Shown here in pieces: positions 1-28,165 of a DNA stretch of 35,412 bases (position 1 is its first letter; each line of letters opens with the position of its first letter). A model generated the notes under the pieces. That model was not told the origin of the DNA and made no database searches. It saw nothing but the letters and a program-made list of their open reading frames with translations. The stretch covers positions 1-35,412 of IMG/VR virus record IMGVR_UViG_3300046170_000094; one strand, given 5' to 3'. The translations under genes and the position numbers were made by a program. The DNA comes from a virus.

Positions 1-290
1 TAAATTTAAAAACAGGAATGGATTTAGAAGATGGTTATAACGCAAAACCATTTGAAGAAGATTCTCCAGAGCAATCTGTAGAAGAACCTACCTACCTTGA
101 TGATGAGGTAAATGTAGAAGATATAATAAAAGATATTTCTGACACAACAACTGCAAGACAATTATCTGCAGTTAAAGATTTGGTTAGAGATCAAGTTATG
201 TATCTTAAAAAAAATAACCTTAAAGCATTCGAGCAAGTTATGAAATATACTCGTGAGCATGAGGTCAAACTAAACAATAATCAATCATAA
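1..290 (+). CDS. erf: ERF-family single-strand annealing protein, C-terminal part (gene wraps round the window ends)
   Basis: The open frame enters from base 3, reading NLKTGMDLEDGYNA and onward for 95 residues. The ATG at 18 lies inside this conserved stretch and is probably not a start. ERF proteins continue after their S-Y-x-R-K-Y-A motif with an A-L-x-x-x-T-G-x-D segment. The gene at 35029-35412 ends in exactly that upstream motif (KYAFLNA), so this is its C-terminus. Adding one base between window end and start gives one 224-residue protein, a normal ERF length. The acidic tail (EEDSPEQ, then a helical segment) is the variable part of the family. ERF anneals complementary single strands in phage recombination and replication. 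No separate RBS precedes ATG 18. Confidence 0.8.
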   Translation, partial: NLKTGMDLEDGYNAKPFEEDSPEQSVEEPTYLDDEVNVEDIIKDISDTTTARQLSAVKDLVRDQVMYLKKNNLKAFEQVMKYTREHEVKLNNNQS

Positions 291-314
291 GATTGATATA
301 ACCAAGGAGTAAAC

Positions 315-620
315 ATGGATAATAAATCCGACAAGATATACATTAACCTAACCAAGAACCCAGATTGGAAGTCACCAGAAGATAAACTTCCTATATATGT
401 TGGTCCAAAAAATATGAAGCATCCAGATAAGAACTGGACCATTGGAGTAAACATTAATGGTAAGTGGTATAACCAGGCTGCCTTTCCGTCTAAAGATCAA
501 GACGGCAAAGTAAAAGCAGGAGAGTTGACTATAATTTTAACACCAAGTGGAGCAGGTAAGTCTACTAATAATAGCTTTGCAAAAGCAGATGATGGTGGTA
601 ATAACGAATATACCTTTTAA
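315..620 (+). CDS. Hypothetical phage protein, 101 aa
   Basis: A good Shine-Dalgarno (AAGGAG, about 304-309) precedes the ATG. The protein is soluble and beta-rich, with pairs such as WTIGVNINGKWYNQAAF, and ends in a Ser/Gly-rich tail (SGAGKS) that looks disordered. SGAGKS resembles a P-loop, but the context and length do not support an NTPase. It follows the recombinase in the same block, 24 bases downstream, which is the usual place for a small replication accessory or a ssDNA-associated protein. I do not recognise a named family. It appears intact. Confidence 0.7.
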   Translation: MDNKSDKIYINLTKNPDWKSPEDKLPIYVGPKNMKHPDKNWTIGVNINGKWYNQAAFPSKDQDGKVKAGELTIILTPSGAGKSTNNSFAKADDGGNNEYTF

Positions 621-638
621 CTTAGGCTAAAGGGTATC

Positions 639-684
639 AAGCAGGGTGGGGTTTTTTTCCCTTTCCGTTTTCCCCACCTTGCTT
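639..684 (+). promoter_or_regulatory. Intergenic stem-loop upstream of the DUF3310 gene
   Basis: AAGCAGGGTGGGG (639-651) can pair with CCCCACCTTGCTT (672-684): 13 positions with one G-T pair and a 20-base pyrimidine-rich loop that starts with seven T. It is one of the few GC-rich spots in this AT-rich genome. The right arm ends 8 bases before the ATG at 693, which has no clear Shine-Dalgarno, so the structure may control translation, stabilise or process the mRNA, or act as a weak attenuator. The T run lies in the loop, not after the stem, so it is not a classic terminator. Confidence 0.5.
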
Positions 685-692
685 ACAAACTT

Positions 693-908
693 ATGACAGA
701 TAATATTAAAGAACCAAAACATTATACTCAATACAAGATTGAGCCTATTGATTTTATTATTTCTAATAATTTAGATTTTTGTACAGGTAATATAATTAAG
801 TATGTTTTAAGATATAATTTAAAAAATGGTGTTGAAGATCTTAAAAAAGCTAAACAGTATATAGATTTTTTGATCGAAAAAAAAGTTGAAAAAGGTACAA
901 AAGTATGA
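693..908 (+). CDS. DUF3310 family protein (nucleotide kinase-like small phage protein)
   Basis: This 71-residue protein shows the DUF3310 pattern. An N-terminal P-x-H-Y stretch is followed by E-P-I-D-F-I (residues 17-22), then IIKYVLRYNLKNG and EDLKKAKQYIDFLIE. Members are common in tailed phages and are often annotated as nucleotide kinase-like, but no reaction is established; this one is near the minimal length. The stop overlaps the start of the next gene (ATGA at 905-908), so the two are translationally coupled. No Shine-Dalgarno is visible; the stem-loop at 639-684 lies just upstream. Confidence 0.85.
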   Translation: MTDNIKEPKHYTQYKIEPIDFIISNNLDFCTGNIIKYVLRYNLKNGVEDLKKAKQYIDFLIEKKVEKGTKV

Positions 909-1159
909 CAAAATTTAAAAGAATTATCAATGGAGAGTGTCATTTTCAAATGATTGAACTCTTTGATGATGTAAAGAAGGCTGCAAACAACTCGAATAGA
1001 GGAGAGTTTGTAGAAGTAAAAATCGACAACTTAAAGTACGATTTTACAACAGTAGCAAAGGAGCATGATGGAACAAATCCGAATGCGTCTGCAAAAGCTA
1101 AAGGATCTTCAAGCGAAGAAACACGAGAAGTATCTGGAAGCGAAGCTAAAAGTAAATAA
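905..1159 (+). CDS. Hypothetical protein, probably frameshifted near its middle
   Basis: The start is coupled to the previous gene by ATGA. Residues 1-55 (through VAKEHD) look like ordinary protein. The remaining 29 residues become Ser/Ala/Glu/Lys low complexity, typical of an out-of-frame reading. In the +1 frame a clean helical sequence continues from the same point: skipping one base around 1069-1072 gives AKEHDEQIRMRLQKLKDL and reads on to a stop at 1232. The intended product is therefore probably about 108 residues (905-1232), an N-terminal domain plus a coiled coil. Alternatively, two real genes overlap. Function unknown. Confidence 0.6.
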   Translation: MTKFKRIINGECHFQMIELFDDVKKAANNSNRGEFVEVKIDNLKYDFTTVAKEHDGTNPNASAKAKGSSSEETREVSGSEAKSK

Positions 1160-1232
1160 GTATCAACAAGATTCTTATAAATTACTTTGGCAAATAGAGC
1201 AGACAAAAGAAAAATTAATGGCTAGTAAATAG
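1068..1232 (+). CDS. Alternate-frame continuation or small overlapping gene, 54 aa, coiled coil
   Basis: An open frame begins ATG-ATG at 1065 and 1068 right after AAAGGAG (1057-1063) and runs without a stop to TAG at 1230-1232. The protein is rich in Lys, Glu, Gln and Leu with heptad-like spacing (RMRLQKLKDLQAKKHEKYLE). It overlaps 92 bases of the 905-1159 gene in the +1 frame. It is either the true C-terminus of that gene after a one-base frame change, or an overprinted gene with its own ribosome site. The sequence alone cannot decide. Confidence 0.55.
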   Translation: MEQIRMRLQKLKDLQAKKHEKYLEAKLKVNKYQQDSYKLLWQIEQTKEKLMASK

Positions 1233-1280
1233 TTATTAAATTAAAAGTTGAAAAAAAAGAAAGGAAACTGTAGGGGATCT

Positions 1281-1805
1281 ATGACCATAAATGTAAGTCA
1301 ACACTATCAAAAGCACATAAAAAACATAAACAACAATCAATTTATATATAAAGTTAAGAAAGCATTTTACCTTCTTACGAGCCAAGAAGAAAGATTATAT
1401 GAGGTAGGGTTCTCGGAAGGATTTTTATATGCAGCAGATCTCCTACAAAAAAACAATCCAATTGTAGACAGTAATTTAAAAAGAAAGGTTGGTATTAAAT
1501 TTAAAAACGCAAACATAGAAGTTGTTTCTAAACTTGTAGATAAAGTGTGTGAAAGATATGCTGTTAGCAAGAACGATGTATTCAGTAAAGGTAGAACTTC
1601 AGATGTAGTTCGAGCAAGAAGCATTGTCTATAATCTTTTACACGAACAATACAATGTAAGTATCTCTTCAATGAGTAGAGTATTTAATCAAGATCATACA
1701 ACAGTAATTAATTCTCTCCGTAATAAACAGGAGAAGAGAAGATACTGGAACCCTGGTAATACTATTTGGGAAGAGTATGAAGAGTTAAGAAAAATTACTT
1801 TTTAA
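1281..1805 (+). CDS. Stand-alone DnaA domain IV (DNA-binding) protein
   Basis: I take the ATG at 1281 with AGGGG 5 bases upstream; a TTG at 1248 would add 11 Lys-rich residues. The 174-residue protein carries the C-terminal DNA-binding domain of DnaA at about residues 79-153. It includes a helix with VVRARSIVYNLL, the helix-turn-helix region SISSMSRVF, and the DnaA signature DHTTV at 138-142. The AAA+ ATPase (domain III) and oligomerisation domain I are absent. The first about 75 residues are unrelated, with a helical segment near EERLYEVGFSEGFLYAAD. Known DnaA domain IV binds TTATNCACA-type boxes; an ATPase-less version could recruit, mimic or titrate host DnaA. It is the last gene of its block and meets the late block tail to tail. 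Confidence 0.85.
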   Translation: MTINVSQHYQKHIKNINNNQFIYKVKKAFYLLTSQEERLYEVGFSEGFLYAADLLQKNNPIVDSNLKRKVGIKFKNANIEVVSKLVDKVCERYAVSKNDVFSKGRTSDVVRARSIVYNLLHEQYNVSISSMSRVFNQDHTTVINSLRNKQEKRRYWNPGNTIWEEYEELRKITF

Positions 1806-1956
1806 ATCCAGACTTCATATTCTTGTAAGCCTTCGCAGAGATTGTAGACTTCTTTTTAGAATTTGAAGTACCAGCTTTTTTTTTCTTATTGATGTTATAG
1901 TAAAGACCCTTCTTTGCGATCTTACCAGATTTAGTTTTGTGATAACCTTTTTTCAT
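1795..1956 (-). CDS. Small lysine-rich basic protein, 53 aa
   Basis: The 53-residue protein starts MKKGYHKTKSGKIAKKG and ends with KNMKSGFKK. It is extremely basic (Lys, Ser, Gly) and has no hydrophobic stretch, so a nucleic-acid-binding or disordered virion-associated role is possible. The start is coupled to the previous gene by TAATG (1954-1958), with weak AGAGAAAA upstream. Its stop lies inside the end of the DnaA-like gene on the other strand, an 11-base convergent overlap with no room for a terminator. Similar short Lys-rich proteins occur in marine phages; function unknown. Confidence 0.7.
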   Translation of the reverse strand: MKKGYHKTKSGKIAKKGLYYNINKKKKAGTSNSKKKSTISAKAYKNMKSGFKK

Positions 1957-2063
1957 TATTTTCTCTTTTTAGATTTAGATTTCATAATCTTTTTTTGTAA
2001 AGATTTTGGTAGAGTTTTTTGTTTAGATGTTAATTTACTTTTACCTTTTGATTTACCATACAT
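1956..2063 (-). CDS. Small lysine/serine-rich basic protein, 35 aa
   Basis: The product begins MYGKSKGKSKLTSKQK and ends KSKSKKRK; almost half the residues are Lys or Ser. I chose the ATG at 2063 because AGGAG (complement of 2071-2075) stands 7 bases before it; an in-frame ATG at 2069 is too close to that site. It overlaps the upstream zinc-type protein by 11 bases and the downstream gene by one (TAATG). Function unknown; probably nucleic-acid-binding or disordered. Confidence 0.6.
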   Translation of the reverse strand: MYGKSKGKSKLTSKQKTLPKSLQKKIMKSKSKKRK

Positions 2064-2268
2064 AACCATACTCCTGTTGTTGTTGTTGTTTAACTTTTAA
2101 CTCACAATAGTTATCAAAGCAAGAACCTTCTTTACCATCATGACAAAAATATTCTTTCTTATGGGTTACTATCCAACCACCTTCATCACTCATTAATTGT
2201 TTGTCACACTCTTTACAATGACCACAAACTAATGATTGAACTTTTGGTTTCTTCCAGGTTTTTTTCAA
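2053..2268 (-). CDS. Small cysteine-rich (zinc-ribbon-like) protein, 71 aa
   Basis: C15-G-H-C18-K-E-C21 forms a C-x2-C-x2-C knuckle, with further Cys at 42, 50 and 55 (FCHDGKEGSCFDNYC), so it probably binds zinc. The start is a TTG at 2268, one base after the stop of the previous gene; GGAAG about 8 bases upstream could be its ribosome site. The C-terminus has five glutamines encoded by a GTT/CAA trinucleotide run (2075-2091), a possible slippage point. No catalytic residues are recognisable. It is part of the tightly packed end of the late block. Confidence 0.65.
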   Translation of the reverse strand: MKKTWKKPKVQSLVCGHCKECDKQLMSDEGGWIVTHKKEYFCHDGKEGSCFDNYCELKVKQQQQQEYGYVW

Positions 2269-2269
2269 A

Positions 2270-2551
2270 CTAACACTTCCATCTTCTTCTAGCTTGTCTT
2301 ATTCTAGAGTTAGGATCGTTCCTTGTTTTAGCAGAAGATCTTTTAAGTTGACCAAGAGATCTTGCGCAATATGATTTTCTTCTTTTAGCTGCCTTTGATC
2401 CAGGTTTAACTTTACCTGTTACTGCAGTTTTTAATTTACTACCAGGATTGGCTCTTCGATATGCTCTTACACCTTTAGCCGTCATACCAGCTCCAGACTT
2501 TGTTGGTCTGTAGTTTGCGTTCTTACCTTTAGTAGTTTTTCTTATAGCCAT
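2270..2551 (-). CDS. DUF5872-like basic protein, 93 aa
   Basis: The sequence has the pattern I associate with DUF5872, found in phages and large algal viruses: TKSGAGMTAKGVRAYRRANPG near residues 17-37, then AAKRRKSYCARSLGQLK, and a C-terminal NDPNSRIRQARRRWKC. Highly basic with conserved Cys and Arg/Trp at the end. Molecular function is not established; DNA binding is plausible from the charge. Starts at ATG 2551. The family name is from memory and should be treated as probable. Confidence 0.7.
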   Translation of the reverse strand: MAIRKTTKGKNANYRPTKSGAGMTAKGVRAYRRANPGSKLKTAVTGKVKPGSKAAKRRKSYCARSLGQLKRSSAKTRNDPNSRIRQARRRWKC

Positions 2552-2555
2552 AATT

Positions 2556-2765
2556 TTATTCTACTATTTTTTTTATAGCTTTACTACCATCAATATTTTC
2601 TTCTAACTCTGCTTTTACCTTACCACATTTATATTCTATATTATCGTTAGCAGATCTTTCGGCAACTCGTTTACCTTTTAAACAATCACTCATTGCAGGT
2701 TGAATACGATGCTCTGTTAGTTCTCCTGCTATGAACATACATAAAGCGACAACAGATTCAATCAT
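2556..2765 (-). CDS. Small protein with N-terminal membrane or signal segment, 69 aa
   Basis: MIESVVALCMFIAGEL at the N-terminus is a short hydrophobic segment followed by a polar body (EHRIQPAMSDCLKGKRVAERSA) with two Cys. This suits a small inner-membrane or exported protein. The ATG overlaps the stop of the upstream gene (ATGA at 2762-2765). Similar small proteins occur near the lysis and tail end of marine podovirus genomes. A lysis-accessory role is possible but unproven. Confidence 0.65.
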   Translation of the reverse strand: MIESVVALCMFIAGELTEHRIQPAMSDCLKGKRVAERSANDNIEYKCGKVKAELEENIDGSKAIKKIVE

Positions 2766-2926
2766 AATACTTTACCTTTATTCTTACCTTCTTTGATAAC
2801 ATATTTTTGTGTACCATGTTTACCTGTTTCTACTTCTTTCTTTAGATGTTTTACAAAGTTCATTTGTTTTGTTTTCTTATCTAGATCACTTAAATATTGA
2901 ACAATTTTTCTAGTAATTCTTTCCAT
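2762..2926 (-). CDS. Small charged helical protein, 54 aa
   Basis: The product begins MERITRKIVQYLSDLDKKTK and ends GKNKGKVL. It is Lys/Glu rich, predicted helical and without a membrane segment. It overlaps the upstream gene by 17 bases and the downstream gene by the ATGA at 2762-2765. No family recognised. Its coupling on both sides and clean codon structure support a real gene. Confidence 0.6.
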   Translation of the reverse strand: MERITRKIVQYLSDLDKKTKQMNFVKHLKKEVETGKHGTQKYVIKEGKNKGKVL

Positions 2927-3278
2927 TGGCTCTTACCTTATCTTTTAACTCTTCAACATCAGCTAATGCTTTATCTAACTGATCTCTTAAAAACTGTATG
3001 TTAACTTTGTTAGTCATATTTTGTTCTTGAGTTAATTCTAGTTTTTCTGTTGTTTTATATAGATCTTCAATCAACATATATTGTTCTTGATCTGTAGGTA
3101 ATTGTTCTGATTTTTTTAATAGATCTGCTTGAAATAATTCTCTTGAAGTTTCCAAGGAAGTAAGTCTAGCAGTAACTTCAGTATATGCGAAAACACCTGC
3201 AGCTACTCCTGCGATAATTGCAAGCATATTTTTGATAGGCATACTAACATTTGTTTTATCTGAAACAGAATATTTCAT
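2910..3278 (-). CDS. Membrane-anchored coiled-coil protein, 122 aa (possible spanin- or holin-associated)
   Basis: There is one transmembrane segment at about residues 17-33 (NMLAIIAGVAAGVFAYT), then a long charged coiled coil to the end (LTQEQNMTNKVNIQFL and LDKALADVEELKDKV). One N-terminal TM plus a long periplasmic coiled coil is the architecture of i-spanins (Rz-like), but no family signature is visible and no Rz1-like lipoprotein is clearly nested in it. Start coupled to the previous small gene by ATGA (3275-3278). Confidence 0.65.
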   Translation of the reverse strand: MKYSVSDKTNVSMPIKNMLAIIAGVAAGVFAYTEVTARLTSLETSRELFQADLLKKSEQLPTDQEQYMLIEDLYKTTEKLELTQEQNMTNKVNIQFLRDQLDKALADVEELKDKVRANGKNY

Positions 3279-3549: not shown

Positions 3550-3666
3550 TATCTTTTCTTCTTATATTTCTTTTTCTTTTTCTTTTTACCTGTTTGCTGC
3601 GCAAGTAAGTGTAGGTTTCTTTCTACTATACTGCGATACAAACATTGTTGGTGCTTCGTTACTCAT
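3549..3666 (-). pseudogene. Small gene with a one-base (or four-base) frame break
   Basis: From ATG 3666 the frame reads MSNEAPTMFVSQYSRKKPTL and then stops at 3586 after only 26 residues. The +1 frame continues as LAQQTGKKKKKKKYKKKR and ends at a TAA that overlaps the next start (TAATG, 3547-3551). This exact coupling indicates where the gene really ends. At the junction the plus strand has the tandem AAGTAAGT (3603-3610). One four-base repeat too many, or one surplus base, explains the break. The intended protein is about 37-38 residues with a lysine tail; function unknown. Confidence 0.55.
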
Positions 3667-4847: not shown

Positions 4848-5059
4848 TATGACTCTTTATTTTCTTTTACTTCCTCATCTTTAGGAAGTTCAGCTTTTAA
4901 CAGCTCAGTATATTTACCTTTTAAGATACCTAAATCTTGTGCTTCTAAAGAAAGCTGTTGTTCTTTAGTTCCAATATTTTGTAACTTACCAAGATATAAT
5001 TTGCCATTATCAGATAGCTTATCGCTATCATAGTCTTTATCATCAAACTTAAAGTTCAT
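4847..5059 (-). CDS. DUF6447-like protein, 70 aa
   Basis: The pattern (x-D-K-D-Y-D-x-D-x-L-S-D-x-x-K near residues 7-20, then helix LGKLQNIGTKEQQL, then a helix ending in YTELLKAEL) matches the DUF6447 family of small phage proteins: one beta hairpin and two helices. Acidic C-terminus. Function unknown; members are usually near tail genes, as here. Followed one base after by the next coupled gene. Confidence 0.7.
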   Translation of the reverse strand: MNFKFDDKDYDSDKLSDNGKLYLGKLQNIGTKEQQLSLEAQDLGILKGKYTELLKAELPKDEEVKENKES

Positions 5060-5060
5060 G

Positions 5061-5351
5061 TTACCACTCCTTAGTTTTAGACGTTAAAGTAGGTGCTTTT
5101 TGTGATGCGATTTGTGCATCAAGATTAGCTTTCATATCATCTTCAGTTTTATCTGAATGTTCTAATACACAAGCTATAGCATCTTCTTTAGTCATACTGT
5201 CAAAGTCTTGGTCGTTAGTTTGACCATCAGAACCATACATAGTTGCAGAGTGTTCTCCATCAACTGCTGTGTATCTCCAATGGATAACTTTTACTTTGTT
5301 ATCTGCGTCTGTCTCAAAATTTGGGAAAGACCATTCGTATGTTGTTGCCAT
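5061..5351 (-). CDS. Conserved phage protein of the DUF7936 type, 96 aa
   Basis: The N-terminal ATTYEWSFP, then VKVIHWRYTAVDGEHSATMYG, then an acidic segment and a C-terminal helix with A-N-L-D-A-Q-I, matches a small family I know from tailed phages, always just downstream of tail-fibre genes. Likely a beta-sandwich virion-associated or tail-accessory protein; no activity known. Separate ATG at 5351 with GGAGA upstream (complement of 5360-5364). The family number is from memory. Confidence 0.65.
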   Translation of the reverse strand: MATTYEWSFPNFETDADNKVKVIHWRYTAVDGEHSATMYGSDGQTNDQDFDSMTKEDAIACVLEHSDKTEDDMKANLDAQIASQKAPTLTSKTKEW

Positions 5352-5368
5352 ATTATTTTCTCCTATTA

Positions 5369-5608
5369 TTAATTATTTAACAAGTCATGCCATACAGTTT
5401 TAATTTCATCAGTTGTTGTAGCTGTATCTACTTGACTTGGTAAATCTCTTAATGTTTGTTTATCAGCAACAATAGAAGTAGTGTCTGAACCACTTTCATT
5501 TGCTCTCATATAATCAACATCTAATTTTTCTAATGCTGGTTTTCTTGCTTCTCTTATTTTATTTTTCCAAACATCTTTTGCTTTTGAAATATCTATAGTT
5601 ATAGCCAT
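5369..5608 (-). CDS. Small tail-fibre-associated protein, 79 aa
   Basis: The layout is ISKAKDVWKNKIREARKPALEKLDVDYMRA, then a Thr-rich turn, then KQTLRDLP and a C-terminal IKTVWHDLL. It matches short phage proteins (D-x-x-[KR]-A-x-x-x-x-R-x-x-L-R-x-A-R-x-P-x-L-x-x-L-D) found next to tail fibres and often thought to help fibre assembly. Coupled to the upstream gene by a one-base overlap at 5608. Confidence 0.65.
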   Translation of the reverse strand: MAITIDISKAKDVWKNKIREARKPALEKLDVDYMRANESGSDTTSIVADKQTLRDLPSQVDTATTTDEIKTVWHDLLNN

Positions 5609-5841
5609 TAGTCTCCAACTCCATCTGTTAATTCTGCATCATCTATTGTCCAAGCATTTCTAAAAGTTCTATCTGTAGGAATAAAATTATCATCTACGAT
5701 TTTGTATGGAAAACCAGTAGGTACATCTTTTTTAGCAATTTCATCTACTGTCATTGTTTCCAATGCTTCTGGTGATGGTGTCATTATAGTTATATCACTT
5801 TGAATGTTTGGTGATTGATTTTTAAAAATTATTTTACTCAT
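5608..5841 (-). CDS. Small tail-fibre-associated protein, 77 aa
   Basis: The C-terminal part carries EIAKKDVPTGFPYKIVDD, then IPTDRTFRNAW, a pattern that recurs in small phage proteins always paired with the protein encoded at 5369-5608. The two probably work together in fibre assembly or host-range variation; no activity is known. AAGGAG precedes the ATG at 5841. Confidence 0.7.
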   Translation of the reverse strand: MSKIIFKNQSPNIQSDITIMTPSPEALETMTVDEIAKKDVPTGFPYKIVDDNFIPTDRTFRNAWTIDDAELTDGVGD

Positions 5842-5856
5842 TATTTCTCCTTAATG

Positions 5857-7176
5857 TTATTCAAAGAATGTTGCGTTTACTTCTGGAAAATCAGATAAAT
5901 TTGCAGCATCACTATAAGTTGCTATTTCACATCTTCCAGTTTCTTTAATACTATCTGACCTTCCATAACTAACATCTCCAATTATACTTGTGTTAGTATT
6001 TGGGTCTCTTCCTGCACCTGCCATAGTATAATTTGCACTACTAAGACTACTTGTAAAATTAATCACATATTCTCCAGTTCCATTGTCATTAATACTACTT
6101 ACATTTGCAGTAGATTGAACTGAGTTGTTAGCTCCATTAAACATGGCATAAGCTACAACTGAACCTGCACCAGATGATATTCCTGTTAATGCAGAACCAT
6201 CTCCAGAAAATGATGTAGCTTTTACTGTTCCATTAACATCTAGTTTTTCTGATGGCGATGAAGTTCCGATACCAACTTTTCCATCTGATTTTATAATTAA
6301 TTTTTGGCTTCTTTGAGGAGCAAATATAAAGTCTGGGTTAGAACCACCTGCATTAGACCAAGTTGAGAATACTACATTACTAGCTCCTTGAGCTTCAAAT
6401 AAAGTTACATTGGCGTTTGCTACTCCCCCAAAAGTAGTTCCACTAGTTGATGAACCATAAGAATATATTTTCATATAACCACTAGCATTATTCCACGCTT
6501 CAAAACCACCTAATGCAGTTGATGTTGTAGTTTTTGATTTAATTATAGTATTCTGTGCACCAGAACATTCTAATTCTTCAGATGGCGATGCAGTTCCAAC
6601 ACCAAATCCAACACTTGTTGCTCCAAATGCTACTGTATGAGAACTACCACCTCTATAGAAAACAAAATCATTTGCTACAGCTGATATTAATGGTTTAGCT
6701 GTGCCACTTGTATTATCGCAAAGTTCTATACCACCATAAGTATCAGTAGATTCAAATCTAGCAAGTTGATTGTCACTAGAAACTATATGTAATTTTCTTG
6801 ATGGTGATGAAGTTCCGATACCTAATCCAGTAGAATTTAATCTCATTTTTTCTGAACCTGCTACTGCAATTTGTAAAGCATCTGTATCATGTCTATAATT
6901 TATTTGACCTCTGTAACTTCCTGCTCCTGTTCCATCTGCGAAATGAATTGCTCCTGTATGAGATGTTCCAGTATAAATAGTTAATCCTTGATGTGTTGAA
7001 CCATTACCAACTAATAGAGGTAATCCACCTGCATCAAAGCCAGAAGCACTTGTAGTATTTATTAATACATTCTCTGATGAGTTAATAGTTATAGCAGTAG
7101 CATCAGCATTATCATCTATACCTTTAGATTGAAAATTTAATACTGGTATGTTTGCTTTATCTCTTGCGTTAGTCAT
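5857..7176 (-). CDS. Tail fibre or receptor-binding accessory protein, 439 aa
   Basis: The protein has repeated G-x-G-T-x-S-P-S-x-x-L motifs (GIGTSSPSRKL, GVGTASPSEEL, GIGTSSPSEKL), typical of beta-structured phage fibre shafts and heads. A single motif set is shared with the large tail fibre at 7463-10957, suggesting duplication. It lacks the T7-type N-terminal anchoring domain, so it may bind to the main fibre or be a second tip. There is no Ser/Lys peptidase S74-like chaperone signature that I can see. The C-terminal domain (about 330-439) is unlike the main fibre and may determine receptor choice. Confidence 0.7.
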   Translation of the reverse strand: MTNARDKANIPVLNFQSKGIDDNADATAITINSSENVLINTTSASGFDAGGLPLLVGNGSTHQGLTIYTGTSHTGAIHFADGTGAGSYRGQINYRHDTDALQIAVAGSEKMRLNSTGLGIGTSSPSRKLHIVSSDNQLARFESTDTYGGIELCDNTSGTAKPLISAVANDFVFYRGGSSHTVAFGATSVGFGVGTASPSEELECSGAQNTIIKSKTTTSTALGGFEAWNNASGYMKIYSYGSSTSGTTFGGVANANVTLFEAQGASNVVFSTWSNAGGSNPDFIFAPQRSQKLIIKSDGKVGIGTSSPSEKLDVNGTVKATSFSGDGSALTGISSGAGSVVAYAMFNGANNSVQSTANVSSINDNGTGEYVINFTSSLSSANYTMAGAGRDPNTNTSIIGDVSYGRSDSIKETGRCEIATYSDAANLSDFPEVNATFFE

Positions 7177-7180
7177 TTAA

Positions 7181-7435
7181 TTATAAATCCTCTTGTTCAG
7201 CTTTAAAAGTTGCATAAGCATCTTTAACATCTTGTGTCCAGACTGCGTTGCATACTGCTTGAACCTCTGAGTGTTCATTCGTAATATCTGCATCTGGCAT
7301 TAAAGAATGTCTATGATACTTTCTTGATAATTCTTCATTGTCTTCCATAACTACAGTATCTGTTCTTACTTGAACTGATTTGTATTTTCCGACCACTTCG
7401 ATTTTACCAATCTGTGTCTCTTTAGTTAGTGCCAT
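7181..7435 (-). CDS. Small conserved protein between tail-fibre genes, 84 aa
   Basis: The sequence TKETQIGKIEVVGKYKSVQVRTDT, then LSRKYHRHSL, then AVCNAVWTQDVKDAY recurs in a short phage family next to fibre genes (K-I-E-V-V ... V-R-T ... S-R-x-Y-H-R-H ... A-V-W-T). Likely an all-beta plus helix protein of the tail tip or a fibre assembly factor. No activity known. It lies between the two fibre genes with gaps of 4 and 27 bases and has its own GGAGA ribosome site. Confidence 0.7.
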   Translation of the reverse strand: MALTKETQIGKIEVVGKYKSVQVRTDTVVMEDNEELSRKYHRHSLMPDADITNEHSEVQAVCNAVWTQDVKDAYATFKAEQEDL

Positions 7436-7462
7436 GTGTTGTCTCCTGTGTTGTTGTTAAAA

Positions 7463-10400
7463 TTAAACATGATAAAAACCACCTAAATTAATTTGCATCA
7501 AACCGCTTTCGTCCATTTCTGATGCATCAAGTGTATTATAATTTGCTCCACTACCTGCTTGGTTTATATAAAGTTCTACTCTTGTAGTGTTTGGAGAAAT
7601 TTGACCTTTGATACCTGCATCTCCTAAATTTTGATAACCTTCTATCGGAAAAACACTTATCGCACTTTGAAAATAGTTAGATATATTTGCTGACGTAAAA
7701 GGCAACCCATTTATCCATGCTGTTCCTAAACTAGTTACTGAAGCTGTAGATATTCTAATATTAAAAAATACTATGTTTCCTATTTTAGTGTATCTGCCTT
7801 GCTGACCACCACTAACATAATTAGAAGTTCCTGTACTCCAACTAGGTGTAAAAGTTCCTTCTTCGTAATCGTCTAAATTATTTGCTGAACCTGTGCCACC
7901 AAGACGTACTCCGTCTGATAAATATAATCTTCTAAATCTAACTCCTTGCTCTCCTAAATCTTGGTCAGCATCAGAATTAGAACCATCTGAATTACAAGGA
8001 GTAATACAATTTAAATCATCTCTAAATCTAATTCCAGAATTTCCAGTAGATGCAATATGTAATTTAGAACTTGCTGAACCAATACTACCAACTGATGTTC
8101 CATCTTTTCTAAATTGAACAATATCTCCATCAGAACTTAATCTATTTAATAATGCTGAATAGTTGCCACTAACTGTTGCAATTAAACGACCATCTGATTT
8201 AAATTCTGCTCCTGCTGAACCTATACCTGTAGCAGTTTTTCCCACCATGAAATTTCCAGATGAGTCGATACGCATTTTCTCATTTCCATTAACTCCAAAA
8301 TCTAAATGGTCTCCATTGTGAGTATAATTAATATAACCAATACAATTATTTCCACTATCTCCAAAACATATTGCTCCATTAGATGTATTGCCAGATAGAA
8401 TAGTCATTCCACTATTACCAGAATTTTCTGCTATGACTTGATTGTGACCAGAGTTTGCACTAGCACCACTATCAGCAGATTTAACATGAAGTAATCCTAA
8501 AGGTGATGTTTCTCCGATACCAACAGTTCCACTACCTAAATCAATATTAACGCCATAATTTCCATCTTCACCAATTTTTAAACTTCCTGAAGAACCTATA
8601 CCTTCAATATAAAGTTCATTACCATCTGAGTGAACTTTATAATTTCTACCTGCTCCACTAGTTGCATCAATGCGTATTTCTGGTGTAGCTGATTCAATTT
8701 CTAGTTCTGATGCAGGAGAACTTGTACCAATTCCAACTTTTCCTGCTGATGTGATACGGAGTTTCTCACTATCATCAATTTTAAATTGCATGTAAGTATC
8801 TGCACCACTATTATCTGGGTCTGCATCTATCTGTAAGGAATTAGAACTGCTACCATCATTAGTTATTTGACCAGATTTTTGACCTACATTATCTAAAATA
8901 AATAAACTTCCATTGTTACCTGTTGATATATTACCACCAGTAACTAAATCTCCAGTCATTGTAAGATTAGTGATGCCTGTATAAGCACCAGTAATTCTAG
9001 CATCTGGTACTGTACCACTTGTAAGATTTGATGCGTTCATTGAAGCAATATTAAACGTACCAAAAGTTATAATATCTACGACATCGCCATTTGTTAAAGC
9101 TGAAGCAAAGACAACAGAGTTACCACTTGTTACAGTAACGTCTGTTCCATTTACCATCTTAATTCCATTTAGGAATACGTCTATAAATCCTGCGTCATAA
9201 GTAAGTGAATTTGAATTATCATCATTGCCAGAGACAGTTGTAGGTGTACCAGATATTGTATACTTAAATCTTTCTGAAGTTCCATTTACTGAAGAACCTG
9301 CATTTACCCAACCAGTTGATGAGTAAACTTTTAATTGATTCGAACCTGTATCAAAATACAAATCTCCTAAATCCAATGCTGAACCATCTGGGTCTTGCGT
9401 TGGTGCTGAACTTGATGCACCAAGATAAGTATTTGCAAAACTATTTATTGAAGTTAAATTTGATGCTGCAGTATTTACTGAAGCAATAGAACCACCAACA
9501 TTATTAACATTAGCGATTGAGCCAGATACTGTTCCAATATTATTTGAACCTGTTAAATCTGTAGCTACAGTTCCAATATCACTAGCATCACCTGCCACAG
9601 CATTTATATTTGTGCTATTACCTGCAACTGAATTTATATTGGCACTATTTGAATTTACTGCATTTATATTAACAGAATTTGCATTTACTGCATTTATATT
9701 TGATGAATTATTATTAACATTTGTTATTGCAGTAGAAATTCCAGCTACTGAATTAATATTTGATGCGTTAGAAACTACTGAATTTATATTGGATGCGTTT
9801 GAAACAGCTGCATTAATATTACTTTCATTTGCAACTGCTGCATTAATATTAGATGCGTTTGCAACAGCTGAGTTAATATTGTTTTGATTAGTAACTGTTG
9901 GAGTTAATTGCAACCAAGTTGTAGATGAAAGATTATAAACCTTCATTACATCATTAGTCGTATCAAAATATAATGCTCCATCTTGCAATGCGTTTCCATC
10001 ATTATCTACAGATGGATTAGAAGATTTTGCTCCAAGAAAAGCATCATCAAATAAATCAAAAGTAGCAGCAGCAGCACTAGCAGAGTTAGCCGATGCAGTA
10101 GCAGAATTTGACGCATTAGTAGCATGAGTTCCAGCTCCAACTGCCGAAAGACCAGCTAAGGCTCGAGAATTATCTGCAGCAACTGCCGATGCAGAAGCAT
10201 TTGTTGCAGAGGTAGCAGCAGAAGAAGCAGAGTTTGCAGCAGCAGTTGCCGAACTGGCAGCAGATGTAGAAGATGTTGTTGCAGTAGCAGCATCTACAAG
10301 TAATCCCCATTTTGCACTATCAGTATTAGTAGTTAATGGTTGTGATCCAGATGATGTGTGAGCAGTTAAAGCTATAAAAATATTATTAGTAGATGTATCT

Positions 10401-11041: not shown

Positions 11042-13564
11042 TTATTGGTTAAATTCTGGCACTATTGAACCTGGTTTCATGTAATATGTTTGACCTCTTT
11101 TTTCACTATGATTTGCTTTCATTCTTTCCCAATAACCAGGATCTAAAAATTCTTTAATTTGATAACCAATTAAATAGTCATATGCTGCTTTAGTATAATA
11201 CAAGTTTAAAAAAGGTGTATGACCTTCAACTAATTCGTAAAACTTTTTACCTGCTTTTTTAGGTTCGTTCATAGCTTGAACCATATCAAAGAATTTTTTT
11301 ATATCTCCTGCAGTTGGTCCAAGAGCAGTTTCAAATATACCATTACCATATTCATTTTGAATTTCACTTATTAAGAAATCACCATAAATACCACCACCAC
11401 CACCTTGAGCAAATGATTGTAATATAACACCTTTCTTTTTAGGATCTCTAGGAGATCTACCTCTAATCATATCTTTAGTTGTCATTGCTATATATCCAAA
11501 AATAGTACCCATTATTACAAGACTAGATAAACCTTTTAACATTGGTAAACTACCTTCATCTGCTCCATAAGAATATAATTCTCTACCAATAATTTTTTTC
11601 CACATACTAATAGGGAACCCTTTAAACTGCATAACAAATCTAATGGTTTCTCCCATTGGAGTACCTTTTTCTAAACCTTGGTTCATGATTGCTCTAGTAG
11701 CAGCATCTGGTTCTGGAGATCCATGCATACCTTGATCTACTAAAACATTTCTCCAGGTTAATTCTAAATCTTTTTTAAAGTTTCTTATTTCTCTTTCAGA
11801 TAATTTTCTACCAACATATTTCATTATTGCTTCATCTGCAATTTCATCAACACCTTCTGCAGTTAAATATCTTTTATTATCAACTGCTAAAGTTTCAATT
11901 GAACGAAGCATATCCCATTTACCTTCGTCAATACCATATAAAGTTAAAAAATTTTTTTCTCTTAAATCTAAATCTGCAAACTTTGTGCTAGTCTGCATTC
12001 CATAATGTCTAGATAATCCTAATATCATTGAACTTTTTAATCTTGACACCCAACCATTTAATGAGTTCCATTTAAAGAATGTATTTTGTAATTCACCCAT
12101 TTTACCCCAACTATCATTACCTGCAGCATATACATTACCTCTATAAGCCGTAGCAGAATAAGAGTTACTTACTACTTGCAAGACTTCCATTGCAGCTTTA
12201 TCGTTTGCATTAAATAATCCTGTTAATGCTTCAAATAAACCAGTTAATAATCCTCTACCTTGAAAGTTTGTACTACCCATATATTGAGGTAAGTCACCAA
12301 AAGAAGTAATAGGTGTCATACCTAATCTTGCCATGGCTCCTGTTGATCTAACAACCATACCTACTTTTGCTAAAACATCATTTGATATACCATTAATACT
12401 TCCATCTATTTCTTTAAATTCATTTTCAAAATTTTTAAAAGTTAATTTATTAACTTGTGAAGGATCTTCGCTTTTATATTTTTTTCTTAACAAAGCTAAA
12501 ACTTTTTCTAGAGTATCTTTAGGATTAGTTCCAAGTGTTTGCATTAATGCAATGTTTCTTGTGCTAGTCGTAATAACACCTAATACATTTTCTTTTAAAG
12601 AAGGTTCTCCAAACTTAACACTATATTCTTGTCTACTAGCAGAATTTTTAAAATGTAAAACTCTTGATGCGTTTAGTCTATTAGTTACATTTTTTGTACC
12701 AAAAACACTTCCTGCGCCATCATGTTTTGTATGATCACCAGACATAAGACTATCAAAAATATTATCTAATATTTTATCTATTTCTTTAGGATCATTTACA
12801 TTTGCAAAACTTCTTTTTAAATCTAATCTAGGTTTAATATATTCTCTCCAAGCCACTCTATGATCACCAATAATTTTAGAACCATTTGCAGCTCTAGCCA
12901 TTTTTTCTGTGTTATGAGACATTCTTGTAATCCAATCATCTATCTCACCTATGTTAGCACCAAGATCATTTAACTGACCTCTTAAATCAGATTGTATTCT
13001 CATCAACACTTTTGCAATTTGTTTAGCTTCTGGGTTACCAGAAATTAAACCTTTCATTTCATCCATAATTTCTAAATCCATTTTACCAGAAGTTAAAGCA
13101 TCCCAGGATGTAGGTGATATTTCGTTTATTCCTCTAAAAAAATTATTAATTTCCATTTCCTCTAAAGCAGTTTGTCTTGATCCAATAGAGTCTCTAGCAA
13201 TTTTAGAAAATTTTTGATTACCAACTAATTTAGCTAAAACACCTTCTTCTGGTGTTAATCTAAATTTAACTCCAGACGCAGCAGATAAGTCTACTGCATC
13301 TATAATTTGTTGATAAATATCTATAGCCTTCATATTGTTGTCGGCTAAATTTCTTTTCTTTACTGCTTGTTCATATTCAAATTTGTCTATAACTTCTTTT
13401 GCTAAAATCTCATCTGTTTTAATTTGTGCTTTTTCAAATTTACTTTCATTAATTTTTATTTTAGCTTCATCTAAAATTTCATTAATTTGTTCATCAGATA
13501 TAAGATCACCAGTTAATCTTTTAACTTCTTCAAAACATTTAGATATTTTTTTTATATCTGCCAT
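11042..13564 (-). CDS. Large internal virion (ejection) protein, second half of a gp16-like pair, 840 aa
   Basis: A long helical protein in the position of the T7 internal core/ejection protein gp16. One strong hydrophobic segment near residues 680-705 (LSSLVIMGTIFGYIAMTTKD) could insert in the host membrane during DNA ejection. The C-terminal part (AGDIKKFFDMVQAM, EGHTPFLNLYYTKAAYDY) resembles the C-terminal region of large podovirus internal virion proteins. No peptidoglycan-hydrolase motif is here. The start overlaps the previous gene by one base (TAATG), so the two are coupled; together they are about 1264 residues, near the length of T7 gp16 (about 1300). Confidence 0.75.
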   Translation of the reverse strand: MADIKKISKCFEEVKRLTGDLISDEQINEILDEAKIKINESKFEKAQIKTDEILAKEVIDKFEYEQAVKKRNLADNNMKAIDIYQQIIDAVDLSAASGVKFRLTPEEGVLAKLVGNQKFSKIARDSIGSRQTALEEMEINNFFRGINEISPTSWDALTSGKMDLEIMDEMKGLISGNPEAKQIAKVLMRIQSDLRGQLNDLGANIGEIDDWITRMSHNTEKMARAANGSKIIGDHRVAWREYIKPRLDLKRSFANVNDPKEIDKILDNIFDSLMSGDHTKHDGAGSVFGTKNVTNRLNASRVLHFKNSASRQEYSVKFGEPSLKENVLGVITTSTRNIALMQTLGTNPKDTLEKVLALLRKKYKSEDPSQVNKLTFKNFENEFKEIDGSINGISNDVLAKVGMVVRSTGAMARLGMTPITSFGDLPQYMGSTNFQGRGLLTGLFEALTGLFNANDKAAMEVLQVVSNSYSATAYRGNVYAAGNDSWGKMGELQNTFFKWNSLNGWVSRLKSSMILGLSRHYGMQTSTKFADLDLREKNFLTLYGIDEGKWDMLRSIETLAVDNKRYLTAEGVDEIADEAIMKYVGRKLSEREIRNFKKDLELTWRNVLVDQGMHGSPEPDAATRAIMNQGLEKGTPMGETIRFVMQFKGFPISMWKKIIGRELYSYGADEGSLPMLKGLSSLVIMGTIFGYIAMTTKDMIRGRSPRDPKKKGVILQSFAQGGGGGIYGDFLISEIQNEYGNGIFETALGPTAGDIKKFFDMVQAMNEPKKAGKKFYELVEGHTPFLNLYYTKAAYDYLIGYQIKEFLDPGYWERMKANHSEKRGQTYYMKPGSIVPEFNQ

Positions 13565-14838
13565 TAACTATTCCTTTTAGTACAATAAGTTCCTGCTTCT
13601 ATAGCTTCTCTTATTTTAGTTTTATTTTTTATATTATTATCTATTTTTTCTATTTCAGCTTTGTTTACAGATAATTCTGTAATATCTTCATCTTTAATAT
13701 CTAATTGTTTTTGTCTAACTTTAGTTGATGCATTAATATTTTCTGCTTCTGACTCTAATTCAGAAGTTACTTTTTGTTTTCTTGTTATTTCTTTTTCAGT
13801 AAATAGTTTTTTATTATTAGCATTAATACCTTCTTTTTGTTCTTTTAATTTAGCTTCATCGTTTGCTTTTCTTTTAGCTTCGATTAAATCTCTTTCTGTT
13901 TTTTGTAGGTTTCGCAAGTTTTGCAAGTAAACTTTTGCAGACTTTCTATCATTATTATCTAAAGAATTTTTATATAAACTTTTATATTCTGTAATTTGAT
14001 CTTCTAATTTATTTAATCTTTCATCACCTATTCTAGTTTTTTCAACTATAACATTTCCAGTATCTACTTTCTCTCCTTTTAAAACTTTACCAACAGAATA
14101 TCTTAATAATGCTTGTTGATTTTCTGGAGAGATCGCAGCAAGTTTTTGATAGATATTTGGCTTACCTCTTTTTTCTGCAATAAAATCACCTATTCTTCCA
14201 AAACCAACATGAGCTGCAGAACCTATAAATCCACCTACTGCTATGTTTGCAAAAGAATCATATACATCGTAATTAGCTTGCTCTGATTTAGCCACACCAT
14301 AAACAAGAGGTTCAACTGCAGTATTACCAACAAAACCTTCAACAAAACCTTTTTTCATTCTAGCAACATTTTTACCAGATCTTGCTACCATATTTGCAAA
14401 TCTTGTTTCACGAACAATTGGAACAAAAGATGCTGCAAGATTAATAGGATCTAAAAAACTTGTACCTAAAGATTCTAAAAAGAAAAAACTTCTAGCAAGT
14501 TTACTATCTGGACCTCTAGCAATAACATCTGCTCTTTCATTTTCTAATTTTTTTCTTTCTACCAAGTAGTCAACTAAACCTGCTCTAGTATCTTTTTCAA
14601 AAACTAAACCAAGATCTCCATACTCTTTGTTTAAAAAATCTCTATCTAAATATTCACTACTTGATTGATATGCTTGAGTTTGTTCTACAGATCTAAATAT
14701 AGAAGATGTTGGATTGTAGTTCCAGGCATTCATAAATGTTGCGCCTGCAGTTTCCCAAAAACCACTTTTAGTTTGATTGTATAAAGAACCTATCTCTTGT
14801 TCGGATGTTTCAAAACCACCTAATCCAAAATTTATCAT
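13564..14838 (-). CDS. Internal virion protein, first half of a gp16-like pair, 424 aa
   Basis: The N-terminal half has a segment with small and hydrophobic residues (FLESLGTSFLDPINLAASFV and NIAVGGFIGSAAHVGFGRIG), which is the membrane-active look of ejection proteins. The C-terminal half is a highly charged coiled coil ending CTKRNS. It has no enzyme motif. It lies between the lytic-transglycosylase-containing protein and the large 840-residue protein, with TAATG coupling to the latter. It probably forms part of the internal core and ejection tube. The clean ending makes a natural gene boundary more likely than a broken gp16. Confidence 0.65.
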   Translation of the reverse strand: MINFGLGGFETSEQEIGSLYNQTKSGFWETAGATFMNAWNYNPTSSIFRSVEQTQAYQSSSEYLDRDFLNKEYGDLGLVFEKDTRAGLVDYLVERKKLENERADVIARGPDSKLARSFFFLESLGTSFLDPINLAASFVPIVRETRFANMVARSGKNVARMKKGFVEGFVGNTAVEPLVYGVAKSEQANYDVYDSFANIAVGGFIGSAAHVGFGRIGDFIAEKRGKPNIYQKLAAISPENQQALLRYSVGKVLKGEKVDTGNVIVEKTRIGDERLNKLEDQITEYKSLYKNSLDNNDRKSAKVYLQNLRNLQKTERDLIEAKRKANDEAKLKEQKEGINANNKKLFTEKEITRKQKVTSELESEAENINASTKVRQKQLDIKDEDITELSVNKAEIEKIDNNIKNKTKIREAIEAGTYCTKRNS

Positions 14839-21456: not shown

Positions 21457-22320
21457 TTATGCTTCGTGAGCCTGTACTTCTACAACTTTAGCTTCTTCCA
21501 TTCTAGTTGCACCGAATGCAGCAGAGTAGTAAACTTGAGTTGCGTAGCCTTTGTCAGATCTTTCATCGATTCTAGCAGTAGAGTCTTTACCTACAGCTAA
21601 TGCAACACCATCTTGTACGAAAGCGATACATTTTCTTTTGCTTGAAGCGATTGCTAGTCTGTTAGATACACAGAAATCAAAGCCAAGGAATGTATTAACA
21701 TCTCCTGCAGCTAATGCTTTTACTGTATTGAAGTCACTTGAAGTTACTTCAGTAGTTCCTAATAGATCAGAGATCTGTTTTGGAGATACTACGATGTATC
21801 TTTTTAGTGAAGGATCAACATCAGCAAGATCGATGATTTCTTTTGCTTCTCTTAATTTAGCAATAGTTAAACCAGCAGTTCCAGATTCAACAATCTTTTG
21901 ACCTGCAGGTAAAGCTACTGCAGTACCACCAGCAACACCTGTGTCAGATGAACCGATTGCAGCAGTTAAGATAGCATCATCCATTGCTCTACCCATTGCA
22001 TAAGCAGCAGCTTGTGCATAGCTAGAAGTTGGATCTACTAACATTCTTACTTTATCTAGATCATCAACTAAATCTGCGAACTCATAGTCAACAAGTGAAA
22101 CTCTTCTTCTTGAGTGAGGAGTATCTGCTTGAGGTGTGTTTGAGTGTCTAGTTGATCTTACTGTTGCAGTTACACTTCCGATTTGATCGAAGAATGCATT
22201 TTTTCCTGTAACAGATTCAAGTCTCACTTTATCTCTTAAAAGTGATCCTTTTTGTTGTGATAACATTTGTATGTTTGAACTGTATTGTTCTACAAATGCT
22301 TTTGTTATTTCAGTTGACAT
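21457..22320 (-). CDS. Major capsid protein, 287 aa
   Basis: Small HK97-fold type capsid protein of podoviruses: residues 1-60 (N-arm with FVEQYSSNIQMLSQQKGS), then RRRVSLVDYEFADLVDDLD, P-domain with AYAMGRAMDDAILTAAIG near 110-125, and a C-terminal YYSAAFGATRMEEAKVV. The position between scaffold and tail tubular genes and the codon use (many preferred codons) support it. AAGGAG ribosome site upstream. T7 gp10A is 345 aa; this is a short version. No frameshifted long form is visible. Confidence 0.9.
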   Translation of the reverse strand: MSTEITKAFVEQYSSNIQMLSQQKGSLLRDKVRLESVTGKNAFFDQIGSVTATVRSTRHSNTPQADTPHSRRRVSLVDYEFADLVDDLDKVRMLVDPTSSYAQAAAYAMGRAMDDAILTAAIGSSDTGVAGGTAVALPAGQKIVESGTAGLTIAKLREAKEIIDLADVDPSLKRYIVVSPKQISDLLGTTEVTSSDFNTVKALAAGDVNTFLGFDFCVSNRLAIASSKRKCIAFVQDGVALAVGKDSTARIDERSDKGYATQVYYSAAFGATRMEEAKVVEVQAHEA

Positions 22321-22418
22321 ATTATGTCTCCTTAATTGTTAAGTTAATGTTAAAACAAAACAGAGACGTTATCAGAAATTCTGGCTTCTCTTGCATTTAA
22401 AGTCTGTTAGACTAGAGT

Positions 22419-22601
22419 CTATTCCTTCTTGTCGGTAAGGTTCTTACGAATTGTCTTACTTTTGTTAGGCGAATTTTCACTCGCCTTACAAACCCATGTA
22501 TAATATTCTTCGCAGATTGGCAAGGGATTAGATTTTTGATTCTCTGATCCACTCTCTACAACAATACGAAGTATTTCTAATCTTAATTCTTCTTTATCCA
22601 T
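22419..22601 (-). CDS. Hypothetical small protein between scaffold and capsid genes, 60 aa
   Basis: An acidic N-terminal helix (EELRLEILRIVVESG), a C-E-E-Y-Y-T-W-V-C motif and a basic Ser/Lys-rich tail (NKSKTIRKNLTDKKE). It overlaps the end of the scaffold gene by 8 bases. Similar E-x-Y-x-W-V small proteins lie in this slot in related phages, as I recall. Role unknown. A 98-base non-coding gap follows before the capsid start; it holds the capsid ribosome site and short inverted repeats (around 22404-22422). Confidence 0.55.
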   Translation of the reverse strand: MDKEELRLEILRIVVESGSENQKSNPLPICEEYYTWVCKASENSPNKSKTIRKNLTDKKE

Positions 22602-23672: not shown

Positions 23673-25298
23673 CTACTCAACATCTGCATTAGCTACTGCT
23701 TGCGCTTCTTCTGGCAATGCTTTTGCTAATGGTGCTACTTTTCCTCCTGCTTCTGCTAATTGTTGTACTTGTTGCATCTGTTGCATTTGTTCTTGTTGTT
23801 GTGCTTGCGCCTGTCTTTCTGCGTCTAATTCAGATTGTGGTTTTAATATTTTTTGAGGTACACCAACAATGCTAGTTAGATGTCTAACTAATTTATCCAT
23901 ATTGATATGATCAAATACTGGAGCAACATTTGATAAGCTACCCATAATTTCTATTGCTCTCATGATAGATGAAAGTTCTGTAGATTTTTGTGCTTTAGCT
24001 AATGGTGATACATATTCAATTTCAATGTCTTGACCAGATAAAAAGTCTGGTGCTTGTGCAAATAAATTTCTTCTCATTAAAATTGCAAATGCTCTATCGA
24101 TTAATGGTTTTAATAATTCAGATTGAAGTCTACCCAAAACTGGTCCAAGTAATCTCATCTTCTCTTCGTTTCTTTGTATAACTTCTGTTGCCGTCATTTG
24201 TGGACCATCTTGCATCATTAATTGATTTACATAGAAAGCATTTCTAATTGAGTTTCTTCTTTGCTCTTCCATGTTTAAACCTAGTGTATTGTTTGCACCA
24301 ATATTTAAAGGTTCAATTCTATCTCTAGTTCCTGCTCTGTAAAAATTTAAACCACCAGGTACTGTTCTTACTGGTAACATAAAACCATCATCTGGAACTA
24401 ATAAAGGTGGATCAACTTGTTTTTGCGCAGACTTGATTATAGTTTTTGACATTTCATTTAGCATCTTAACATCTGGCAAAGCTGTCATTGCAGGAGATCT
24501 ACCATATATTTCGTGTGATGCTTTTAAGTATCTAGGTACTACAAAAGGAAACTCTTTAAATCCAGAAACAGATAATTCATCACCACTATCTGCATCCATG
24601 TAAATAGATTCAAAAGGCATATTTTCTTTATCTTGTTTTGTAGGATTAAAATCTGATCTAGGATAAACTGCGTGAAGTATCTCTACTTCTTCGTAAGGAT
24701 CCTTTTTTGCTGTAACTGCAATGTGAGTTGATACATTGCCAAACTTTTGTATTGCAGCTCTTGCAGATATTCTAAACTTTCTAAATACTGTATCGATTCT
24801 TCCTTTATCATTTTCTGAAATATAAATTTCATTAATGTGTCTTGTAGAAAATTTTAAATTATCTTCATCATCTTCTTCGATAAACATTGCTGCCGTACCA
24901 AATGTAATTAAATCATGATACAGTTCAAAAATTTCTTGTTGAAAGTTTGATTGATTGAATGCAGAGTACATAACTTCAGTAGCAGATTCTAACCATGCTT
25001 TAGCTTCATCTTCTCCTTCCATTCCTTGATCTTTAAATTTTAAAGAAAACCAAGGTGTTGATGGATTAGTTAACATACCATGAAGTGATGCTGATAATAA
25101 TTCTACTGATTGTAATGGCGAACCATCAAAAATAAGTTCTGTTCTTTTATCACCTTTAGATCTTGACTTTGTTACATCTGCTTTTCTTGGTTGCATATAG
25201 TCTGCAACTTCTTGCCAATGACTTTCCCAATTTTGTCTTTGAGTTTTTAGTCTGTCAAATCTTGATAATAAAATTTTTGCTTTTTCTGATTGTGCCAT
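23673..25298 (-). CDS. Portal (head-tail connector) protein, 541 aa
   Basis: The motifs WESHWQEVADYMQPRKAD, then LIFDGSPLQSVELLSASLHG, FYVNQLMMQDGPQMTATEV, and GPVLGRLQSELLKPLIDRAF are the podovirus head-tail connector family (T7 gp8-like). Length is typical (T7: 536). The C-terminus is Gln-rich (EQMQQMQQVQQ). Forms the dodecameric portal ring through which DNA is packaged and ejected. One-base coupling (25298) to the next gene upstream. Intact. Confidence 0.93.
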   Translation of the reverse strand: MAQSEKAKILLSRFDRLKTQRQNWESHWQEVADYMQPRKADVTKSRSKGDKRTELIFDGSPLQSVELLSASLHGMLTNPSTPWFSLKFKDQGMEGEDEAKAWLESATEVMYSAFNQSNFQQEIFELYHDLITFGTAAMFIEEDDEDNLKFSTRHINEIYISENDKGRIDTVFRKFRISARAAIQKFGNVSTHIAVTAKKDPYEEVEILHAVYPRSDFNPTKQDKENMPFESIYMDADSGDELSVSGFKEFPFVVPRYLKASHEIYGRSPAMTALPDVKMLNEMSKTIIKSAQKQVDPPLLVPDDGFMLPVRTVPGGLNFYRAGTRDRIEPLNIGANNTLGLNMEEQRRNSIRNAFYVNQLMMQDGPQMTATEVIQRNEEKMRLLGPVLGRLQSELLKPLIDRAFAILMRRNLFAQAPDFLSGQDIEIEYVSPLAKAQKSTELSSIMRAIEIMGSLSNVAPVFDHINMDKLVRHLTSIVGVPQKILKPQSELDAERQAQAQQQEQMQQMQQVQQLAEAGGKVAPLAKALPEEAQAVANADVE

Positions 25299-27624: not shown

Positions 27625-27815
27625 TAGTGTATCATATTGGATCTATCACCATGATCTAGTGGTTGATAATCAACACCTAGTGTTACCATGACATAGTTTA
27701 TAAATAAATTTGCAGATTCTTTATTAGGAATACCAATAAATTTAACTGTTACTGAATTAGTTTTCTCATCTATAAAAGCAATACAATCAAAATCGTCTGT
27801 GTCTAGATAAGCCAT
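27624..27815 (-). CDS. Small protein upstream of large terminase, 63 aa
   Basis: The product begins MAYLDTDDFDCIAFIDEKTN; acidic, with a beta-strand pair (SVTVKFIGIPNKESANLFINYVMVTLG). Not a classical small terminase: no HTH is visible. Small proteins with F-D-C-x-A-F-I-D at this position occur in marine podoviruses. First gene of the late block; its start at 27815 faces the divergent region and has no clear Shine-Dalgarno. Function unknown. Confidence 0.6.
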   Translation of the reverse strand: MAYLDTDDFDCIAFIDEKTNSVTVKFIGIPNKESANLFINYVMVTLGVDYQPLDHGDRSNMIH

Positions 27816-27925
27816 ATACCATATGTAGTGGATTTGAAAAAAAATAAAACAAAAAAGTGTTTGTGTATAACTGGCTAGGTGTCTGTGTGTCTGTTGAAAT
27901 TATCCATGTATATATATATAATAAT

Positions 27926-27961: not shown

Positions 27962-28004
27962 TCTCTAAATTTACCAGGAAAAAGACAAATATTTTAAATA
28001 GGTA

Positions 28005-28034: not shown

Positions 28035-28165
28035 TTCCTATAACTTTAAATTATCGGAAGCCGTTAGTCTTAATGCGTAAACAGAAAAAAGTTTAGTTGA
28101 TGTTTGGATAGTGACAATCTCTTTTTTATAACCTCAATTCCTGGACCAATAAACAATTGAGCTGT

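Follow-up and report, generated by a model that had tools for sequence, protein, structure and literature searches.

The window analysed here, a viral DNA record of 35,412 nucleotides, both begins and ends within an open reading frame, which raises the question of whether its two ends are parts of one gene and whether the record represents an entire genome that was cut open at an arbitrary position. On the left, positions 3–290 (plus strand) hold 95 codons open at the 5′ side; on the right, positions 35014–35412 (plus strand) hold 133 codons in a frame that stays open at the 3′ side up to the last base. Both pieces align with gp21 of phage HTVC024P, a protein of 229 amino acids annotated as "putative single strand-annealing protein". 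The right piece matches residues 1–133 at 98.5% identity and the left piece residues 135–228 at 92.6% (window 3–284), so that residue 134 alone is split by the record junction 35412|1 (placed at position 1, no strand). This junction is one base short of closure: abutted directly, the record ends are out of frame, and one extra base brings them into frame. The N-terminal piece matched PHROG 155 (Erf-like ssDNA annealing protein, E 9.7e-6) and scored 16.7 bits against the Pfam ERF family, under the cut-off of 25 bits; the C-terminal piece had no family above the cut-off in Pfam and none in PHROGs. From its sequence, the split gene is that of a predicted Erf-like single-strand annealing protein (SSAP) of an HTVC010P-type pelagiphage.

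The 300 bases at each end of the window were aligned by DNA to 82 other loci, of which 74 matched both ends, one the right end only, five the left end only and two neither. The initial annotation had proposed that the ERF pieces at the two ends fit with exactly one missing base, and all 74 two-end loci agreed, the spacing between the homologues of positions 35412 and 1 being exactly one base in each; these loci belong to one phage group and are not independent, some being near-identical, and most were chosen as the closest relatives of the adjoining nuclease gene. The seam base is T or C in the 74 loci and completes a leucine codon. When the viral collection was scanned with a pattern that left room for zero to four bases at the seam, six contigs matched, all with one T. 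A bigger missing stretch, of 1+3n bases, was ruled out by the one-base spacing in all 74 loci, and such spacing between both ends of a 35.4-kb record can hardly be due to chance.

Two relatives cross the seam at high identity. L004, a natural contig of 6,092 bp, is continuous across it: its bases 1–3014 correspond to window 32397–35412 at 99.3% (3,016 columns) and its sequence from base 3018 onward to the window from position 3 onward, with three pieces downstream of the seam at 95.0, 98.7 and 98.2%. L025 crosses the seam at 98.5% (1.25 kb) and 97.5% (4.85 kb). Since both are continuous there, the two record ends belong to the same lineage.

The right-end region matched 19 phage records corresponding to 18 phages (HTVC010P being present twice), all of them Pelagibacter phages, the best being HTVC024P at 89.8%. 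The terminase large subunit (26353–27624, minus strand) is 95.7% identical to that of HTVC024P over all 423 amino acids and 83.0% identical to that of HTVC010P. The portal, or head-tail connector (23673–25298, minus strand; Pfam PF12236, E 1.3e-159), is 96.1% identical to HTVC024P gp57, and the major capsid protein (21457–22320, minus strand) is 97.2% identical to gp53 over all 287 amino acids. The gene order is colinear with that of HTVC010P-type phages and the unit length falls at about 34–36 kb, as in that group. The G+C content of the window, 31.7%, agrees with the low value (about 32%) of these phages, HTVC010P itself being given as 32% (passage of PMC5332604). The window is thus the genome unit of a pelagiphage of HTVC010P type; by analogy with the isolates, its particle would be that of a podovirus and its host a SAR11 bacterium. 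Phages of this type are reported among the most abundant marine viruses.

We consider it very probable that the window is one complete genome unit of about 35,413 bp whose arbitrary opening point lies in the SSAP gene, one base having been lost there. The proposal of a complete genome of about 35.4 kb, arbitrarily opened, is supported by the relatives that cross the seam and by whole-record alignments in which the window is colinear with HTVC024P and HTVC100P once circular permutation, with one wrap-around, is allowed for. That the genome is "closed", as was also proposed, is borne out at the level of sequence, where closure is demonstrated through the relatives, with the ends one base apart in each of the two-end loci. 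The unit length of 16 of the 18 isolates averaged 35,053 bp (SD 555) after subtraction of 125-bp overlaps, Skadi-3 and Skadi-4 being excluded because of gaps. No exact direct terminal repeat was found in the window, either at 12–399 bp or at 8 bp and above up to 2.5 kb, whereas CheckV asks for one of 20 bp or longer; devoid of end overlap, the window would not be called complete by a terminal-repeat test. The split-gene argument can thus certify a whole genome where such tests miss completeness. We regard the window as a complete, arbitrarily opened phage record whose biology is ordinary.

With a complete unit in hand, one can reason from genes that this record lacks entirely. At E 1e-3 (tblastn), 52 of the 62 HTVC024P proteins were found in the window, among them the annotated capsid, capsid assembly, portal, terminase and tail-tube proteins, and ten had no match at that threshold (gp06–09, gp13 and gp39–43); gene content therefore differs among complete members of the group. 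The idea that completeness would support conclusions drawn from missing genes is reasonable for such wholly absent genes, which make safer evidence than broken ones. It does not extend to genes broken by one-base differences, for which "broken" should not be taken as "lost" because the breaks are one-base differences present in this record only. Because of such differences, several early genes seem interrupted in this record and need to be read with caution.

Some further features of the gene content can be mentioned. Window 4850–9050 forms a variable block amid otherwise colinear genomes, and gp39–43 of HTVC024P were not found in the window. A DNA methyltransferase-like gene is present at 30570–31205 (phrog_757, E 4.7e-55; no Pfam match up to E 0.1). 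The protein encoded at 1248–1805 carries a DnaA C-terminal DNA-binding domain (PF08299, E 1.5e-14), and in HTVC024P the corresponding protein bears the annotation DNA replication initiation.

The record-specific one-base differences were counted in covering alignments that are not independent, some coming from overlapping loci of one contig. The nuclease gene adjoining the seam, a homologue of HTVC024P gp20 (34093–35032, plus strand), is read in two frames (two tblastn segments) with an extra base near 34794–34797; the net gain was one base in 88 of 88 loci, and the insertion lay at 34776–34810 in 86 of 86 covering alignments. Its first piece had no Pfam family above the cut-off, and neither piece had a PHROGs family. 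The gp16 homologue (32579–33254, minus strand) also occupies two frames, with one extra base within 32811–32840 (54/54 covering alignments); gp16 is a "putative transcriptional regulator" in HTVC024P, and the N-terminal part resembles a replication-initiation O-like protein (phrog_678, E 3.1e-4). Three frames were needed for the gp03 homologue (28950–29725, plus strand), with an extra base within 29076–29105 in all 15 covering alignments and a second frame change near 29121–29160 where the indels were mixed. The gp02 homologue (28701–28872, plus strand) is in two frames, with a net gain of one base within 28756–28785 in 12 of 12. The gp05 homologue likewise falls in two frames, its indels being less uniform, and is perhaps broken by one-base differences too. 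Outside genes, the non-coding stretch 3591–3620 has one extra base in all 27 covering alignments.

Elsewhere the picture is less uniform. Between 17.6 and 27.8 kb no indel was unanimous, the largest (22396–22430, between two genes) being present in 48–56 of 77 alignments, and the relatives covering 5–17.6 kb were too few for a judgement. Two stretches were set aside as divergent regions: 29786–29965, with mixed gains and losses in all of its 9–10 alignments, and 13156–13855, with unanimous indels in three of three. Insertions were in excess on the right side (4 in 6,712 vs 1 in 15,400 bases; Fisher p 0.03, for regions chosen afterwards), a clustering that is suggestive only. Homopolymer error was considered as the source of the indels; in the alignments inspected (at most four relatives at each of 13 stretches), the inserted bases lay mostly outside long runs.

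These observations bear on how the seam could have arisen. In the scenario that we favour, a closed assembly of the phage unit of about 35,413 bp would have formed, software would have opened it at an arbitrary point within the Erf-like recombinase gene, and exactly one base would have been lost at the seam through assembly, trimming or consensus error; the seam itself would have no biological role. The loss of the seam base fits such an error, given that early genes are broken by other one-base insertions specific to this record, and it is probably of the same kind as these differences. Against this cause counts the fact that a one-base gap is present in none of the nine near-complete Skadi records. 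One could suppose instead that the record is exactly closed and the phage truly lacks the base, the recombinase then carrying a genuine frameshift like the nuclease and other early genes, which are indeed frame-broken in this record only. We judge this very improbable: the deletion would need to coincide with the arbitrary break point, and the occurrence of several early-gene frameshifts beside head genes free of unanimous indels would be better accounted for by consensus error.

A second alternative, slightly less probable still, is that the seam is a physical genome end, either a terminase cut or the edge of a terminal repeat, within the recombinase gene. The contig does stop at the seam without overlap, as such an end would predict. 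However, the site falls within a conserved gene, some 8 kb away from that of the terminase, and the relatives are continuous across it. Ends were also compared in 31 records, namely the window, the 18 isolates and the 12 contigs of 30–40 kb present in three lists of loci, each limited to the best 80, with approximate positions set by the distance from the terminase. None of the 30 other records ended near the seam, and a packaging end at the seam was rejected on this ground. The nearest starts by terminase distance were those of G008 (about 2.3 kb away) and Skadi-2 (4.0 kb); by direct alignment they were about 2.8 kb and 3.5 kb away, respectively.

The ends of the 31 records are unevenly spread round the map. 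Ten fall at about 27.5–29.8 kb, just past the terminase gene, and eight at about 20.5–24.7 kb. Seven of the ten terminase-side ends belong to HTVC-named isolates (010P, 024P, 034P, 035P, 100P, 203P and 204P), whose opening near the terminase was presumably an editorial choice, and the other three to Skadi-1, G003 and G009. A wider check covered 290 contig ends, 233 of which could be mapped and 57 could not. Broad excesses appeared at 23.5–24.5 kb and 27.5–28.5 kb, partly because the loci were picked by genes nearby. Thirteen ends of the terminase set were spread over 27.5–28.5 kb with no shared base, and no sharp shared end base was found among the relatives in the stretch listed, 27–29 kb. 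A natural genome end may thus lie near the terminase, away from the seam, and the excess at window 27500–28500 might correspond to a variable boundary or to a region used in packaging. Differing contig ends are also expected from the assembly of any closed graph.

Self-overlap at the ends, of 71 bp to 3.3 kb, was found in eight of the 12 contigs and partly in one more (G009), and in none of the three shortest (31.2–33.0 kb). Exact overlaps measured 71, 77 and 107 bp, all odd values. In passages of their paper, the CheckV authors state that many end repeats come in certain odd lengths, which are likely those of the assembler's words, and that such repeats arise on breakage of a circular template at a random location (PMC8116208).

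That the window would come from a larger or chimeric molecule, as a linear piece with ends matching by accident, can be dismissed as extremely improbable: a probable chimeric contig does exist in the group (the 66.6-kb record of L019), but both 300-base ends of the window match L004 and L025 at 97–99%, one base apart, and its length is that of one unit.

Two odd contigs were encountered among the relatives. IMGVR_UViG_3300030202_000274 (66,593 bp; L320–L323) joins about 35 kb of HTVC010P-type sequence to other sequence that, as read from open reading frames, seemingly has its own, different terminase, portal and capsid genes; its first 549 bases recur at 34376–34924 (86%), and it is probably a chimera of two podophages. 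IMGVR_UViG_3300046170_000124 (38,187 bp; L296 and L297) extends 3.3 kb beyond the full circle at 95% identity with one terminase gene copy frame-broken, and looks like an uncorrected long-read contig.

The ends of Polarivirus skadi deserve separate consideration. Direct terminal repeats of 125 bp have been described in four of nine isolates and taken as a sign of pac headful packaging (passage of PMC10504331). We found the exact 125-bp repeat in the deposits of Skadi-1, -5 and -6, and the deposit of Skadi-2 (35,267 bp) is without it. The three repeats lie at 12643–12767, 1–125 and 8979–9103 on Skadi-10, each as a single match there and likewise in Skadi-7 (the ends of Skadi-5, -6 and -1 are loci L266–L269 and L272–L273; L316–L317 are from Skadi-10). 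Because a fixed terminal repeat would occupy a single place within a species, no more than one of the three can be a packaging repeat. The Skadi-2 record is opened elsewhere again, at 24494|24495 on Skadi-10. Of the nine near-complete records, three overlap by 125 bp, four close gaplessly (Skadi-2, -7, -8 and -10) and two are short of bases at their seams relative to Skadi-10 (184 in Skadi-3 and 370 in Skadi-4).

All three Skadi repeats fit assembly overlap. Against this reading, a figure legend reports high coverage at the contig ends of Skadi-1 (PMC10504331), which fall within the terminase gene. The words "SPAdes" and "k-mer" are absent from the main text of that paper, as far as the portion consulted extends, and the passages of PMC10504331, PMC8163748, PMC5332604 and PMC8116208 consulted contained no other statement on HTVC010P-type genome ends. 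We tentatively suggest, at somewhat less than even likelihood, that HTVC010P-type phages are without established genome ends, that the 125-bp repeats are assembly overlaps and that the virion DNA has no fixed terminal repeat there, with probable headful packaging and circular permutation; our confidence in this had been a little closer to even and was lowered because contig ends are in broad excess near the terminase. In this phage group, contig ends and fixed-length end repeats, the published Skadi case among them, are not readable as packaging ends without reads.

Compared with known systems, the window most resembles HTVC024P (MW273920.1) in gene order and length (35,448 vs 35,412 bp). HTVC024P covers 67% of the window at a mean DNA identity of 87.9%, has no DNA match at window 4.85–9.05 kb and weak or no match across most of 11–16.7 kb and, unlike the window, its record is opened past the terminase region (near window 28,270). 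Pelagibacter phage Greip EXVC021P (MT375525.1) likewise has a terminase 95.7% identical to that of the window, whereas at window 33.5–35.4 kb its DNA identity is 77.9%, vs 89.8% for HTVC024P. The Polarivirus skadi isolates belong to the same group, with about 73% DNA identity at window 33.6–35.4 kb, and their records are also opened at differing places; three of the deposits retain a 125-bp end overlap, whereas the window retains none. The assembly-overlap repeats described by the CheckV authors similarly come from a circular template opened at random, but the window, instead of carrying an overlap, is one base short.
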